This document shows positions 2-7,057 of a stretch of 7,057 nucleotides of DNA, piece after piece. Source of the stretch: Candidatus Rifleibacteriota bacterium (GTDB lineage Bacteria > UBP17 > UBA6191 > JACPRK01); the NCBI GenBank assembly GCA_016213865.1, contig JACQZL010000032.1, forward strand, positions 1 to 7,057. Reading direction: 5' to 3'. The position numbers and the translations under genes were made by a program. Below the pieces are notes generated by a model. It saw nothing but the letters and a program-made list of their open reading frames with translations. It was not told the DNA's origin and searched no databases. The first letter of the stretch is position 1. Each line of letters opens with the position of its first letter.

Positions 2-1156
<1,155 letters not shown>

Positions 1157-1523: not shown

Positions 1524-1586
1524 ATGGCCCGTCGTATGGTGCTGGTGACGATGCTCTTCGCGAGCTTGTCGCCGGCCGTTCTTTCG
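1524..1586 (+). other. Signal peptide of the large secreted protein
   Basis: Residues 1-21 have a basic start (MARR), a hydrophobic core (MVLVTMLFASL) and a small-residue cleavage region ending A-V-L-S before Gln22. Signal peptidase I cleavage after Ser21 is the best guess. No Cys follows at +1, so it is not a lipoprotein. This routes the protein through Sec. Confidence 0.8.
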
Positions 1587-4500
1587 CAGACACTTCCGTG
1601 CACACTGCCCGACCTGTACGTGCAGGACTTCACGTACCTCGTCAACTCGTCCCCGGGGGGGTGGACGCGAATGAGCGTGTTCGTCGGGAACGCGGGCACC
1701 GGGACGTACGACACGTTCGACGCGAAGGTCTATCTGAGCACCAACCAGACGATAGACGCCTTCGACACTCAGATCCTGAGCCTCTATGTGAACGGCCTCT
1801 CGGCCAGCACCATCACGAGCTGGACCGGTGAATTCTTGCTGCCGGGCGCGGTCTCCCCGGGCAACTACTTTGTCGGAGCGCGGGTCGACCCGACGAACCT
1901 CGTGGCCGAGTGCAACGAGACGAACAACGTCCTGGCAACGGCGGCCGCGAGCTTCAAGGTCTGGCCTGTCTCGTCCGATGATCACCCGGGGTTGTTCGCC
2001 TCCGTTCGGATTCCACAAGACAGGCTGAGCGATTCGGTGACGAGCCTCGCCGGCTCGATCGAGACCAGCGGAGACGTGGACTGCTTCCGCCTGGACGTCA
2101 CTCCGGGGGTCGCGTACGACCTCTACACGAACGGGCTCGGCACGGGCAGCGACACCGTCCTGGAGGTCTACTCCAGCGACGGCTCGGTGCTCCTGGCCCA
2201 AAACGACGACGATCCGGCCGGGGGCACCAGCGGCTCGCGCGTCACCCTGCGTCCGTCCTCGACGCCGCTCTTCGCCGCGATCCGGCACTACTACTCCTAC
2301 GGGAAGGGCACCTACACTCTGCGTTTGGCCCGGGTCGCGTCCGACGACCATCCCGGGTCCCCACTGGAGACCCGCAACCCGCAGGACACTCTCTCGGTCA
2401 GCGTTCTTGCGCTCTCGGGGCAGATCGACTACGACGGCGACGACGACTACTTCCGCCTGGAGTTGAGCCCAGGGACGACCTACACCCTGGCCACGCAGCT
2501 CTCGACCCTGGCCGACACCGTGCTGACCGTCGTCTCCTCGGACGGGGTGACCGTCCTGGCTTCGAACGACGATGCCTCGTCGACCGACCGTTCCTCCAGA
2601 GTGTCGTTCACGGCTCCGGACAGCGTGCTCTACGCCCGGGTGAGCGCTTACCGGGTGGGCCAGCTCGGCACGTATACGTTGCGGTTGACTCCACCGGCCG
2701 ACGATCACCCGAACGCCCCCGGCCAGGTGCAGTACACGGACACCGTCTCGATGACCGTGCCCTGGCGGGCCGGCCAGCTCGAGGTGGGGGGCGACGAGGA
2801 CTACTTTCGCGTGTCCGTGACCGCCGGCCGCGCCTACGCGCTGGAGGTCGAGCTGGACGGCCTCAGCGATAGCGTGCTGACCCTCTTCGAGTCGAACGGG
2901 ACCACTCCTGCGGGCGAGAACGACGACATCTCGTCGAACAACAGGGCCTCCCACATCGACTTCGTTGCCACGTCGTCGACCTACCTCGCGCGCGTCCGCG
3001 GGTACAGCTCGCTGCTGACCGGAGGCTACGGCTTGCGCTTGAGCGAGGCCGACGACCACCCCAACTCGGCCCGCGGCACCGGCGCCGCAGACCGGCTCAC
3101 CGAGTCCCTCTCGACCCTCCAGGGCTCCATCGAGGCCACCGCGGACGAGGACTACCTGCAGTTGCAGGTCACGGCGGGCGTGCCGTACGTGCTCGGCACG
3201 GCCCTGGGCACTCTGGCCGATTCCGTGTTGACAGTCTACGGCCCGGACGGCACGACGCCGCTGGGCGACAACGACGACGTGGACGACAGCACGAGGGCCT
3301 CGAGGGTTGCGTTCACGCCGTCAGGGACCGGCGCCGTCACCCTCTACGCTCGCGTCCGAGCGTACAGCTCGACCCAGACCGGCACCTACTCCGTCACGCT
3401 GGAACGGGCCACCCTGGACGACCACCCCGACCGGGCCCAGGACCTTCTGGCGGTCCGCGATACCGCCGACGAGTCCCTCCTGGGAGTCCCAGGCAAGTTC
3501 GATCGCGCAGGGGACGTCGATTTCTTCCAGGCTGTCCTGCAGGCCGGCGCCAGGTACCGGGTCGCCCTCTCCCTGGATCGGGTCGTCGGCGCGGCCGTGC
3601 GCGTCCAGTCGGCCAGCGGGAGCCTGCTTGCCGCCAGCCTGGACAACGCCTCCTTCCAGGACCCCGCGGTGGACTTCACCGTCCCCGGCTCGTTCGGTCA
3701 GACAACCGTCCACTTCCGCGTGACGGCGCTTCCCGACACCTCCATCGGAAACTACCGAGTCCGGCTGGTTTCATTGGCCGGGGTCGCGGACGATCACCCG
3801 GCCACGCTCGCCGCGACGAGGGAGCCCGAGGATCTCCTCTCGGACAGCCAACCCGCCAACAGCGGCACCCTCGAGAGCTGGCTGGACCTCGACTGTTTCC
3901 GGCTGGCCCTCGTCTCCGGCCGCCGGTACCTCGCAACAGTCCGGCTCGATACCCTGGCTGCAGCGGAGGTGACCATCCTTGGTGAGGGAGAGACGACTCT
4001 CACGGCGTCCTCCTCGGTGGTCACGTTGCCTGACGGCGCGAGCGGGCTGCAGGTCCCCTTCGTGGCGCCGGACGGTCGCGTGGCCGGGTTGCTGGTGCGG
4101 GCCCCTGCCAGCGGGCGGCCGAGCGGCCGGTACTCGGTCTCCCTGCTGCGAACGGACGACCACGCAGACACGGCGGCCGACGTCTCGGATTCGGACCTGG
4201 TTCCCATCATTGGCTTGCCCGCGCCGGGTACGCTCGAGAGCCCGACCGACGGCGACCTCTTCGGCCTGGAGCTCTCGACGGGCCGGAGCTACCGGATCGA
4301 GGTGATGCCCGAGACCGGCCGCAGGGTCCGCTGCGAGTTGTTCCGGCGGGACGGGACCACCTCGCTCGGAAGTGCGGTCTCACCCACGGACGGCGCTGCC
4401 GCCGGGTTGCAGGGGATCCAGCCCTCGACCTCCGGGACGCACTACTTGCGGGTATCGGTGGCACCGGGCAGTCTGCCCGGGCGTTACTGGGTCCGGCTCG

Positions 4501-6747
4501 TCTTGCCGGCACCTCGTGTGACGTTCACGTCGGTCAGACGTTCCACCGACTTGACGTGTACGTTGACGGTCCAGGGGCTGCCCGGCCGCATGACGGCACT
4601 GTTCGGCGTGCTGCTCTACGACACCGAGCTGCTGACCGGCCCTCAGGATTTCCTGTCGTCCAACGGAACCGCAAAGTACGGCGCGGCCACGCCGTTCCCC
4701 GGGGCCGTCCTCGTGGCGGCCATCCCCGAGCCCACGACCGCGGCGCAAGTCGGCGTCGGTGCCTCGGAGGTCGTCGTGCTCCAGATGCCGCACCGCCTGC
4801 CGGCGGGCGTCTCCGAGCGAGGCAGGGTTGCGGCGGTCCTCACGATCATCAAGGCCGGCAACGACCTCTTCGCGGTCTTTTCTCCCGATGCCGATGCGGG
4901 CCTGGAGCGGGTCGTGGAGGCCTTCGACGCTGCCGGGCGGCTGCTGCCGGTCATCCAGGAGCTCCCCCCCCAGGAGGACATGCGCGCGGCCCGCGTTCGC
5001 CTCGACGGACGCCTCAGCGCCGACCGCGACTTCTTCCCGCACACGCTGACCTATTCCTGGGAAGTGGTGAAGGCGCCGGGTGAGGTGAGGCTGGAGAACC
5101 CGTCGACCGCCACGCCTTCCTTCGTACCTCCGGTGGCAGGCGAGTACGTGTTCAGCCTGGTCGTCTCCGATGCCGACCTGGCCAGTCTGAGGGCCGAAAC
5201 CCGCGTGCTCGTCAACCGAGTCGGCGAGACGCCGACGGCAGTGCCCAGGGCCGCCGCCGCGGGCCAGTTGACGGCGGCGACTCCGGCGTCCAGCCTCGTG
5301 ACCCTGCCCGTGTCGGTGGCCCAGGTACAGCTCGACGCGACCCGCTCGTTCAGCCGAATCTCGAGCCGGACCTCGCAGCTCACCTACCGATGGAAACAGG
5401 TCGAGGGACCGGCCGTGGACCTGGTGCCGTCCAACACCGGCGCCAGCCCCAGGTTTGCCCCCACGACCACCGGACTCTTCGGCTTCGAGTTGACCGCTAT
5501 CGACCCGGCGGGCTCGGTCAGCCCGGGCGACCGGATCGATGTGCTGGTGGTGGCGTCGGGCCAGATCATCCCGCTCGTTTCCGTCACGGCCCAGGCATCC
5601 TCGACCGCCGGGGCGGGCGAAGCCGAGGACCTGGTCGACAGCCTGGCCGGAGGCCTTCGCCGCACCTCGCTTCGTGCCACGCTTCCGACCACCGTGTGGG
5701 TAACGGCCTCGGTCACCGACTCGGAGGTCGCCGCGGGGCGTCACTCGCTCAGATACCTGTACCGCCAGCTCTCGGGGCCGAGCGTCCAGCTCAACCCCGC
5801 GTACGACGAGGGCTCTCGCACCGTGTCGCGTACGGCCTTCTCGCCCTCGCTGGCCGGCGTCTACGAGCTCGAGATCGGAAGAGCCCTTCACGCGCGCCAA
5901 GGACGGCCGTGGACTTGCCTCCACGCCGGTGTCGGCCGTGCAGGTCCCGGCGGGTTCACTCGTCACCCTGGAAGGCCGCGGTTCGGACGACGAGGGCAGT
6001 GGTCAGGCGCCCCGTCACTACACCTGGCAGCAGGTCGAGGGGCCGCAGACTCCCCTGTCAAACCCCTACAGTCGCGTGACGACCTTCGTGACGCCGCAGT
6101 TGCCCGGCACCGAATCGCACGAGATGCGCTTCGACCTCTACGTGGACGACGGGTCCACCCGGAGCGAGCCCTCTCCAGTCCGAGTGCTGGTCGTGCCCAA
6201 GGACTTGCCACGCGTCGAGCTGACCCCGAAGGCCGGGGTCAACCTTCTCGGTCTGGGAGTGGCCCCGCGGACACTCGACAAGCCGTACAATCTGAGCGAC
6301 CTGATGAACGACATGGGGGCCCTGTTCGTGGCCACGCCTGTGCCGGGGCTCCCGGCCAAGTTCAAGGCGTACTTGCCGGGCGATCCGGCGGCCGCGAACG
6401 TCTCGATTCGAGGCAACGAGGGCTACCTGGTCCTTCGCGCTGGACCGGCATCTCGGCCCGTGACCTTGGCCGGCGATCTCTGGGACACCGGCACGCTCAG
6501 CCGAACGGTGACGCAGGGCCTCAATCTGATTCACCTGCCGAGAGGTCTTCCGGCAGGCTATCGGGCCGGACAGCTACTCACCGCGACGGGCGGCACCTTC
6601 GCGATCGTCTTCGAGACCGTCAACGGCCGTACGCGACCTCGGGTCGTACTGCCGGCCGACTCCACGTCGCCCCTGCTGGTGCCCGGTCAGGCCATCTGGG
6701 TCCACCGCGCGCTGCCGTCCACGACTGTCACGCTGCCCCAACAGTAG
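1524..6747 (+). CDS. Large secreted CARDB/PPC/PKD mosaic protein, frameshifted by a 13-nt adapter-like insertion
   Basis: This is an exported beta-rich protein of about 1736 residues once the frame is repaired. In order it has a signal peptide (1-21), a CARDB domain (29-145), seven PPC-like repeats (152-995), a cohesin-like domain (998-1145), four PKD-like domains (1150 to about 1555) and a C-terminal duplicated module. No catalytic domain, transmembrane anchor, LPXTG signal or dockerin was seen. By analogy these domains bind proteins or glycans or act as spacers, so a surface, matrix or adhesin-like role is inferred, not shown. The frame from 1524 is supported to about 5870. Downstream similarity lies in the next frame and ends with TAG at 6745-6747. 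As sequenced, the first frame stays open to 6890, but its last 330 or so residues are an Arg/Gly/Ser-rich artefact. The strong ribosome binding site and convergence with the gene at the right edge support one complete gene. Confidence 0.88.
1608..1958 (+). other. CARDB domain of the large secreted protein
   Basis: Residues 29-145 run from PDLYVQDF to the end of an immunoglobulin-like fold. Family hallmarks are PDL at the start, VFVGNAGTG in the middle, and NYFVGARVDPTNLVAECNET followed by NN at the end. CARDB (cell adhesion related domain in bacteria) domains are adhesion or spacer modules of secreted proteins. Cys26 and Cys130 could form a disulfide closing the domain, which is inference. 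Confidence 0.75.
1977..4508 (+). repeat. Seven tandem PPC-like protein repeats, each opening with DDH
   Basis: Repeats start at 1977, 2343, 2700, 3051, 3417, 3789 and 4155 (residues 152, 274, 393, 510, 632, 756 and 878), a period of 117-124 residues. The shared pattern is DDHP, a Gly-rich strand, G-D-x-D-x-F/Y-x-L, a D-S/T-V-L-T-V core followed by DG, an NDD turn, and a final G-x-Y-x-L/V-x-L strand. This matches bacterial pre-peptidase C-terminal (PPC) domains, usually found at the C-terminus of secreted peptidases. Repeats 1-4 keep the NDD turn; repeats 5-7 have lost it, and repeat 7 opens DDHA. The acidic DxD and NDD loops would suit calcium binding in the first four repeats, which is inference. 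Confidence 0.82.
4515..4958 (+). other. Cohesin-like beta domain of the large secreted protein
   Basis: Residues 998-1145 resemble the cohesin or related carbohydrate-binding-like fold. There is an early strand LTCTLTVQGLPG, then FGVLLYDTELLTG (compare the F-x-L-x-Y-D-x-x-x-L signature), an asparagine-bearing loop, a strand VLVAAI, and a late strand VAAVLTIIKAG leading to FDAAGRLLP. No dockerin is visible in the window. The assignment is by pattern only and is tentative; it may be a different beta-sandwich. Confidence 0.4.
4971..6195 (+). repeat. Four PKD-like domains, the third broken by the frameshift
   Basis: Approximate spans are 4971-5219, 5313-5555, 5574 to about 5940, and 5947-6195. 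Each has an L-x-G/A-x-x-S opening (LDGRLSAD, LDATRSFS, LEGRGSDD), a Y-x-W or equivalent strand (YSWEVV, YRWKQVEGP, YLYRQLSGP, YTWQQVEGP), an A/TP-x-F or similar middle strand, and a closing G-x-Y/F-x-F/L strand. PKD domains are rigid spacer or binding modules in secreted bacterial proteins. The third carries the sequence defect at 5872-5884. Confidence 0.72.
5872..5884 (+). other. 13-nt match to the Illumina adapter stem at the frameshift
   Basis: AGATCGGAAGAGC is identical to the stem shared by the TruSeq read-1 and read-2 adapters. It sits exactly where coding similarity moves from the frame of ATG 1524 to the next frame. Deleting the 13 bases gives GVYELAFTRAKDGRG, which has the same spacing as the equivalent strand of the first PKD domain (GEYVFSLVVSDAD). 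The total then becomes a multiple of three from ATG to TAG. Deleting one G instead also restores the frame, but leaves four extra residues (EIEE region) in the strand. Confidence 0.8.
6220..6708 (+). repeat. C-terminal duplicated module of the large secreted protein
   Basis: Two copies lie at about 6220-6438 and 6508-6708. Copy 1 runs from AGVNLLGLGVAP to FKAYLPGDP and NEGYLVLR; copy 2 runs from QGLNLIHLPRGLP to PRVVLPADS and GQAIWVHR. Shared signatures are G-V/L-N-L near the start, LP-G/A-D, and a closing G-x-x-hydrophobic/aromatic strand ending in Arg. I recognise no named family with confidence. Its place at the very C-terminus suggests a terminal binding or sorting module, which is inference. 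Confidence 0.5.
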
Positions 6748-6811: not shown

Positions 6812-6832
6812 TGGCCGCCGACTGCTGCCTCC

Positions 6833-6894
6833 TGCCCACTGCCCACTGCCCACTGCCCACTGCCCACTGACACTAACCACTAACCACTAACACC
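6833..6894. repeat. Heptanucleotide tandem array, TGCCCAC then TAACCAC
   Basis: Five exact copies of TGCCCAC (6833-6867) are followed by a shortened unit TGACAC (6868-6873), two copies of TAACCAC (6874-6887) and an altered TAACACC (6888-6894). Short heptameric tandem arrays of this kind occur between genes in several environmental phyla. Copy number probably varies by slippage. Because seven is not a multiple of three, the TAA triplets at 6874, 6881 and 6888 fall in all three plus frames, and the CTA triplets at 6873, 6880 and 6887 give TAG in all three minus frames. Confidence 0.9.
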
Positions 6895-6895
6895 A

Positions 6896-7057
6896 TCACT
6901 CCTTCTTCTGATCCGGATTGAACCACACCTTCAGCCAGTACTCGCGGCTGTACTCGCCGGTCGGTTGCGTGAACGCTTCCGGCGGTAACTTGTTGAACAC
7001 CTCGCGCATCCGGTCGCGGGCGTCCAGCGCCTTGCCCTCGTCCCGCAACTGCCGGTA
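6896..7057 (-). CDS. C-terminal end of an unidentified protein, cut by the right edge
   Basis: Reading the minus strand from the edge gives 53 codons and then TGA (complement of 6896-6898). The frame is open right to the window edge. The piece is hydrophilic, starting with a charged, probably helical stretch (RDEGKALDARDRMREVFN), followed by LPPEAF, GEYSREYWLKVW and the end FNPDQKKE. A second in-frame stop (TAG) lies two codons beyond the TGA, inside the tandem array. I do not recognise the family from this fragment; there is no membrane segment or catalytic motif. It converges with the large secreted-protein gene. Coding status is supported by composition and by the ordinary placement of its stop just before the repeat array, but it is short. 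Confidence 0.6.
   Translation of the reverse strand, partial: YRQLRDEGKALDARDRMREVFNKLPPEAFTQPTGEYSREYWLKVWFNPDQKKE

Follow-up and report, generated by a model that had tools for sequence, protein, structure and literature searches.

Genes and features of the locus

The window, by which we mean the whole stretch of 7057 nucleotides that was analysed, contains part of a fumarase gene followed by a large gene whose reading frame switches at a short adapter-like sequence. The features on which the analysis turns, all on the forward strand, are listed here with the basis of each assignment.

2-1156, + strand: 3' part of a fumarase gene (ORF, structure-chain match)
1524-5871, + strand: upstream part of the gene for a large secreted-type protein, in frame 0, with CARDB, PPC and K319L-like PKD domains (ORF, domain matches)
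5862-5888, + strand: 95% interval of the frame switch and likeliest place of a mis-join, with about 114-117 native bases apparently absent (codon usage, relatives)
5872-5884, + strand: TruSeq-stem 13-mer AGATCGGAAGAGC (exact sequence match, 13 of 13 bases)
5885-6747, + strand: downstream part of the large gene in another frame, with the last PKD domain, the C-terminal region and a stop at 6745-6747 (ORF, alignment with the relative P0003)

An in-frame TAG interrupts the fumarase gene at 359-361 (+). Because its two pieces match the structure chain 6mso_A up to residue 318 (aligned with residue 119, the last before the TAG) and then from residue 321 (aligned with the second residue after it), there is no change of length at the stop, and the pieces were colinear with solved fumarases. 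The TAG may reflect faulty sequencing or be a genuine nonsense mutation; circumstantially, it fits a contig of poor quality. Between the fumarase gene and the large gene we observed a very hydrophobic ORF of 46 aa with no Pfam match (1330-1471, +). Short tandem repeats at 6825-6893 (CTGCCCA in 5.4 copies, CACTAAC in 3.0 copies) lie between two convergent genes, and an open frame at 6899-7057 (−), reading YRQLRDEGKALDARDRMREVF...NPDQKKE, is apparently the C-terminal end of a minus-strand gene. The N-terminal sequence of the large protein suggests that it is secreted, and no NCBIfam match came near its cut-off.

The adapter-like 13-mer and the frame switch

The original prediction had placed an adapter-stem 13-mer at 5872-5884, and we found AGATCGGAAGAGC at this position on the forward strand as the sole exact copy on either strand of the window, with the other three listed matches carrying 3 mismatches each. 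The 13-mer is the stem common to both TruSeq adapters, and the longest run in common with either adapter was 13 bases. The number of copies expected by chance in 7057 bases was 0.00021 under uniform base frequencies, 0.00013 under the window's own frequencies and 0.00025 under a first-order Markov model, in agreement with the earlier estimate of about 2 in 10,000. The 13-mer is also compositionally atypical for the large gene, at about the 1-2% level. When scored by base frequencies at the codon positions of that gene, it ranked 45, 87 or 72 from the bottom (three phases) among 5066 in-frame 13-mers, and in both relevant frames it contains an AGA codon, which is used in 4 of 1697 codons.

The position of the frame switch was estimated with a homology-free change-point model of codon usage. 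Its training stretches were 1524-5820 in frame 0 and 5971-6744 in frame 1, and its prior was flat across 5826-5963. The best point was 5878 and the 95% interval 5862-5888, with 0.84 of the posterior falling within 5871-5884, which bears out the claim that the 13-mer coincides with the frame change. Training on the upstream part alone gave the same outcome (0.845). Removal of the 13-mer restores the frame, as had also been claimed, but as a matter of arithmetic only, 13 leaving a remainder of 1 on division by 3.

Relatives of the large protein

When residues 1100-1449 of the upstream part served as query, 92 of the 7992 proteins scored were returned, the window's own ORF (P0001) being one of them. 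The sole other protein at 49% identity over 100% of the query was P0003; P0002 had more bits than P0003, yet its PKD array matched at 31% over 63%. A second search with residues 480-916 of P0003 returned 8 proteins among 7990 scored, P0003 included, of which P0093 (35% over 84%) and P0094 (33% over 93%) share the P0003 design. As the last two are 75% identical (911 of 1216 aligned columns), they are not independent witnesses. The junction region is continuous and in one frame in all three relatives. Searches of other collections yielded little: genome contigs contained no relative when searched with P0003 and 7 loci of remote PKD similarity (28-34%) when searched with the alignment, viral contigs contained no relative, plasmids gave 5 records at 25-28%, and in a further search 2 of 6 genomes gave a remote match. 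With a mean pLDDT of 38.8, the AlphaFold2 model of P0003 was poor and was set aside as evidence.

In frame 0, starting from the ATG at 1524, the alignment with P0003 (584 columns, 44%) reaches GVYELE at 5856-5873 and goes a dozen weak columns beyond it. The frame at positions 1 mod 3 aligned with P0003 from about 5929, at 43% over 267 columns. Read in frame 0, the first bases of the stem give E-I, which fits the PKD pattern (the first residue is E in P0003 and R in P0093 and P0094), and the downstream frame reads the stem as R-S-E-E. Neither E-I-G-R nor R-S-E-E was observed at the corresponding place in any of the three relatives.

A segment missing between PKD domains

Spacing was measured between successive PKD domains, with the aromatic-x-aromatic motif a little ahead of GP as the landmark of each. 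In the window the landmarks at 5052, 5385, 5754 and 6019 gave spacings of 111, 123 and 88.3 residues, the last becoming 84 without the 13 bases. The corresponding spacings were 111, 118 and 123 in P0003 (landmarks 320, 431, 549 and 672, the last of which fell outside the motif pattern of the script and was taken from the alignments), 110, 122 and 122 in P0093 (616, 726, 848, 970) and 110, 122 and 123 in P0094 (617, 727, 849, 972). The two preceding spacings of the window therefore agree with the relatives, while the last is 38-39 residues short of all three. It follows that, with the 13 bases taken as foreign, 114-117 native bases are absent; taken as native, they reduce the net loss to 101-104 bases. 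The absent part corresponds approximately to residues 590-627 of P0003, where one PKD domain ends and the following one begins.

These results contradict the claim that removing the 13-mer restores the PKD strand spacing, which then stands at 84 residues against 122-123 in the three relatives. They support the accompanying caution that the flanks might not be contiguous and that sequence could be missing. The check that the original prediction proposed against homologues of the PKD region was run here on proteins, and P0003, P0093 and P0094 all carry the 38-39 extra residues. A clean insertion of 13 bases is rejected on the spacing; the lesion resembles a mis-join in which sequence was lost.

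We also considered a repeat-mediated collapse between PKD modules. A search over 5000-6744 found no repeat at the junction. The repeats elsewhere were short or imperfect, with lengths of 14-28 nt and 79-93% similarity, and some of them had a copy to the left and another to the right of the junction; we rejected this candidate for the stretch searched.

The stem in public contigs

As controls we scanned IMG/VR for the stem followed by C, as in the window, for the stem followed by ACA or GTC, the two forms of adapter run-on, and for a scrambled 14-mer. The contig-end comparison drew on the best 80 of 89 stretches for stem+C and the best 80 of at least 120 in each other scan, and was confined to whole-contig loci, hand-picked from their lengths (34, 30, 66 and 60 for stem+C, scramble, stem+ACA and stem+GTC, respectively). 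Among the matches listed, run-on faced outward within 200 nt of a contig end in 127 of 132 cases: stem+ACA gave 70 matches on 66 contigs (65 outward within this distance, 1 inward, 4 internal) and stem+GTC 62 matches on 60 contigs, all 62 outward. By chance, about 4 contigs in each of these two sets would have a match near an end. The 34 listed matches to stem+C, on 34 contigs, were distributed differently (7 outward, 3 inward, 24 internal), as were the 30 listed matches to the scramble on 30 contigs (1 outward, 29 internal).

Among the best 80 loci of each set, whole contig or not, and with matches less than 300 nt from stretch ends excluded, the reading frame was open for 90 nt on both sides in 56 of 69 listed matches to stem+C and 60 of 74 to the scramble. 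Internal stem+C 14-mers are thus mostly natural and behave like the scramble. Since the two occur in open frames equally often, an internal 13-mer on its own is weak evidence of an adapter. Of the four listed internal stem+ACA matches, L250 and L290 lay just past the 200-nt limit and L296 departs from the adapter after three more bases, while in L238 a long piece of adapter is followed by more sequence. An 18-base pattern, made of the five bases preceding the stem in the window and the stem itself, was found in 4 contigs, all with ordinary adapter run-on near a contig end. Several IMG/VR records are themselves contaminated (L238:3889-3960, L280:68-100, L014:100-162), with a TruSeq adapter, or pieces of both adapters, joined to further sequence.

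Ordinary adapter contamination therefore looks different from the case of the window, which counts against a quick verdict. The 13-mer lies at 5872-5884 of 7057 and not at a contig end facing outward, and the bases after 5884, CCTTCACG, belong to neither adapter-specific tail. What does match an adapter remnant is that native sequence is interrupted at the stem, by a frame switch and the absence of 38-39 residues.

Origin of the junction

We consider it probable (about 0.77, a figure that is our judgement and not a computed value) that the 13 bases are a residual TruSeq stem in a mis-join across a small gap of a poorly covered contig, an artefact with about 115 native bases missing. Left-hand reads would have exhausted their insert near 5871 and run into the adapter. 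The consensus would then have stretched exactly 13 bases, to where paired TruSeq adapters diverge, because these adapters have only those 13 in common. The stem would next have been joined to native sequence lying 114-117 bases downstream in this gene, with the loss of the last part of one PKD domain and the first part of its successor, and the rest would thereby have been thrown out of frame. With 863 further bases of this gene to the right of the stem, simple read-through fails to account for the right-hand join. Candidates for how that flank was attached are the closing of a gap, the joining of contigs and the mispriming, during library PCR, of a strand that ended in adapter. The 13 bases would accordingly be adapter, and the join would stem from the library or the assembly and not from the organism.

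The evidence for an artefact comprises the exact 13-base match, the localised switch, the 38-39 absent residues, the atypical composition, the fumarase TAG and the precedent of L238. Against it stand the facts that known run-on faces outward at contig ends, that internal stem+C is mostly natural, and that E-I suits the PKD pattern. A natural origin is unlikely because the stem, the missing segment and the frame switch, itself placed to within about 27 of 7057 nt, coincide within about 30 nt, but internal adapter joins are likewise rare, so it keeps some weight.

Such an origin would be a real deletion and frame change in the organism, by decay or polymorphism, with a junction that spells the adapter stem by chance, and we regard it as unlikely. 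The usual confinement of run-on to contig ends and the natural character of most listed internal stem+C matches (56/69 in open frames, scramble 60/74) speak for it, and the fumarase TAG could likewise be real decay. It needs three coincidences, however, in that a 13-mer expected 0.00025 times falls within a break interval of about 30 nt and in the broken gene, and that 13-mer is atypical for the gene. Were it true, the giant PKD-protein gene would have lost about 100 bases net, the resulting natural sequence would be indistinguishable from adapter, so that trimming programs would clip it, and the locus would represent a decayed gene with a curious junction and no new mechanism.

Somewhat less likely still is a mis-assembly or chimera without adapter: the 13-mer would belong natively to one of the flanks, or a native site resembling adapter would have been trimmed and so have contributed to the gap. 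The missing segment and the frame change require a mis-join only, and R-S-E-E in the downstream frame is possible for a linker. The absence of this reading, and of E-I-G-R, from the three relatives argues against a native 13-mer, as does the small chance of a stem at the join, and clipping would presumably hit the reads of one strand only. Programmed ribosomal frameshifting is highly improbable: two overlapping open frames do hold two parts of one protein, but the relatives encode the region in one frame, inspection by eye found no slippery heptamer at the junction, and we rejected it on the missing segment, since a frameshift cannot supply about 38 absent residues and the two frames together fall short of a complete relative-type protein (spacing 84-88 against 122-123).

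The original prediction had favoured residual adapter over both programmed frameshifting and gene decay. Adapter is indeed the best reading and frameshifting a poor fit, while decay is less likely than an artefact but keeps some probability.

We treat the locus as a data-quality matter; it would be wrong to take the broken frame, or the PKD boundary that seems to be lost, as biology. The same applies to P0001, an ORF of 1788 aa that is in the protein collection owing to the broken frame. Since native sequence is missing as well, deleting the stem alone would yield an in-frame fusion that is false. More widely, the control indicates that an internal match to the stem only is usually natural and requires an independent sign of a break.

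Comparison with known systems

The protein of the window shares its PKD run (Pfam K319L-like type) and a similar C-terminal region with P0003, P0093 and P0094, and its PPC domain with the last two. It differs from all three in a longer N-terminus and a CARDB domain, and in lacking the 38-39 residues that they carry.

TruSeq contamination of public assemblies has been described by Moeller et al. (2024, PMC11536531), who report that 1110 of 15,657 MGnify species assemblies were enriched in the stem at p < 0.01, where about 157 were expected, and that in public assemblies the stem is concentrated at contig ends. The stem is the same as here, used there as a 12-base marker. The cases described in that report lie at contig ends and often run into the rest of the adapter, whereas in the window the match is internal and spans 13 bases, after which native sequence of the gene resumes. 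Cooley and Wright (2024, PMC11017572) linked internal stops to assembly error, and their spurious pseudogenes are likewise broken frames that arise from the assembly and not from the organism. Their account, as far as considered here, concerns frameshifts and internal stops generally, while the case of the window is that of a probable adapter join. Adapter contamination is thus already known, and the window is an unusual internal instance of it.
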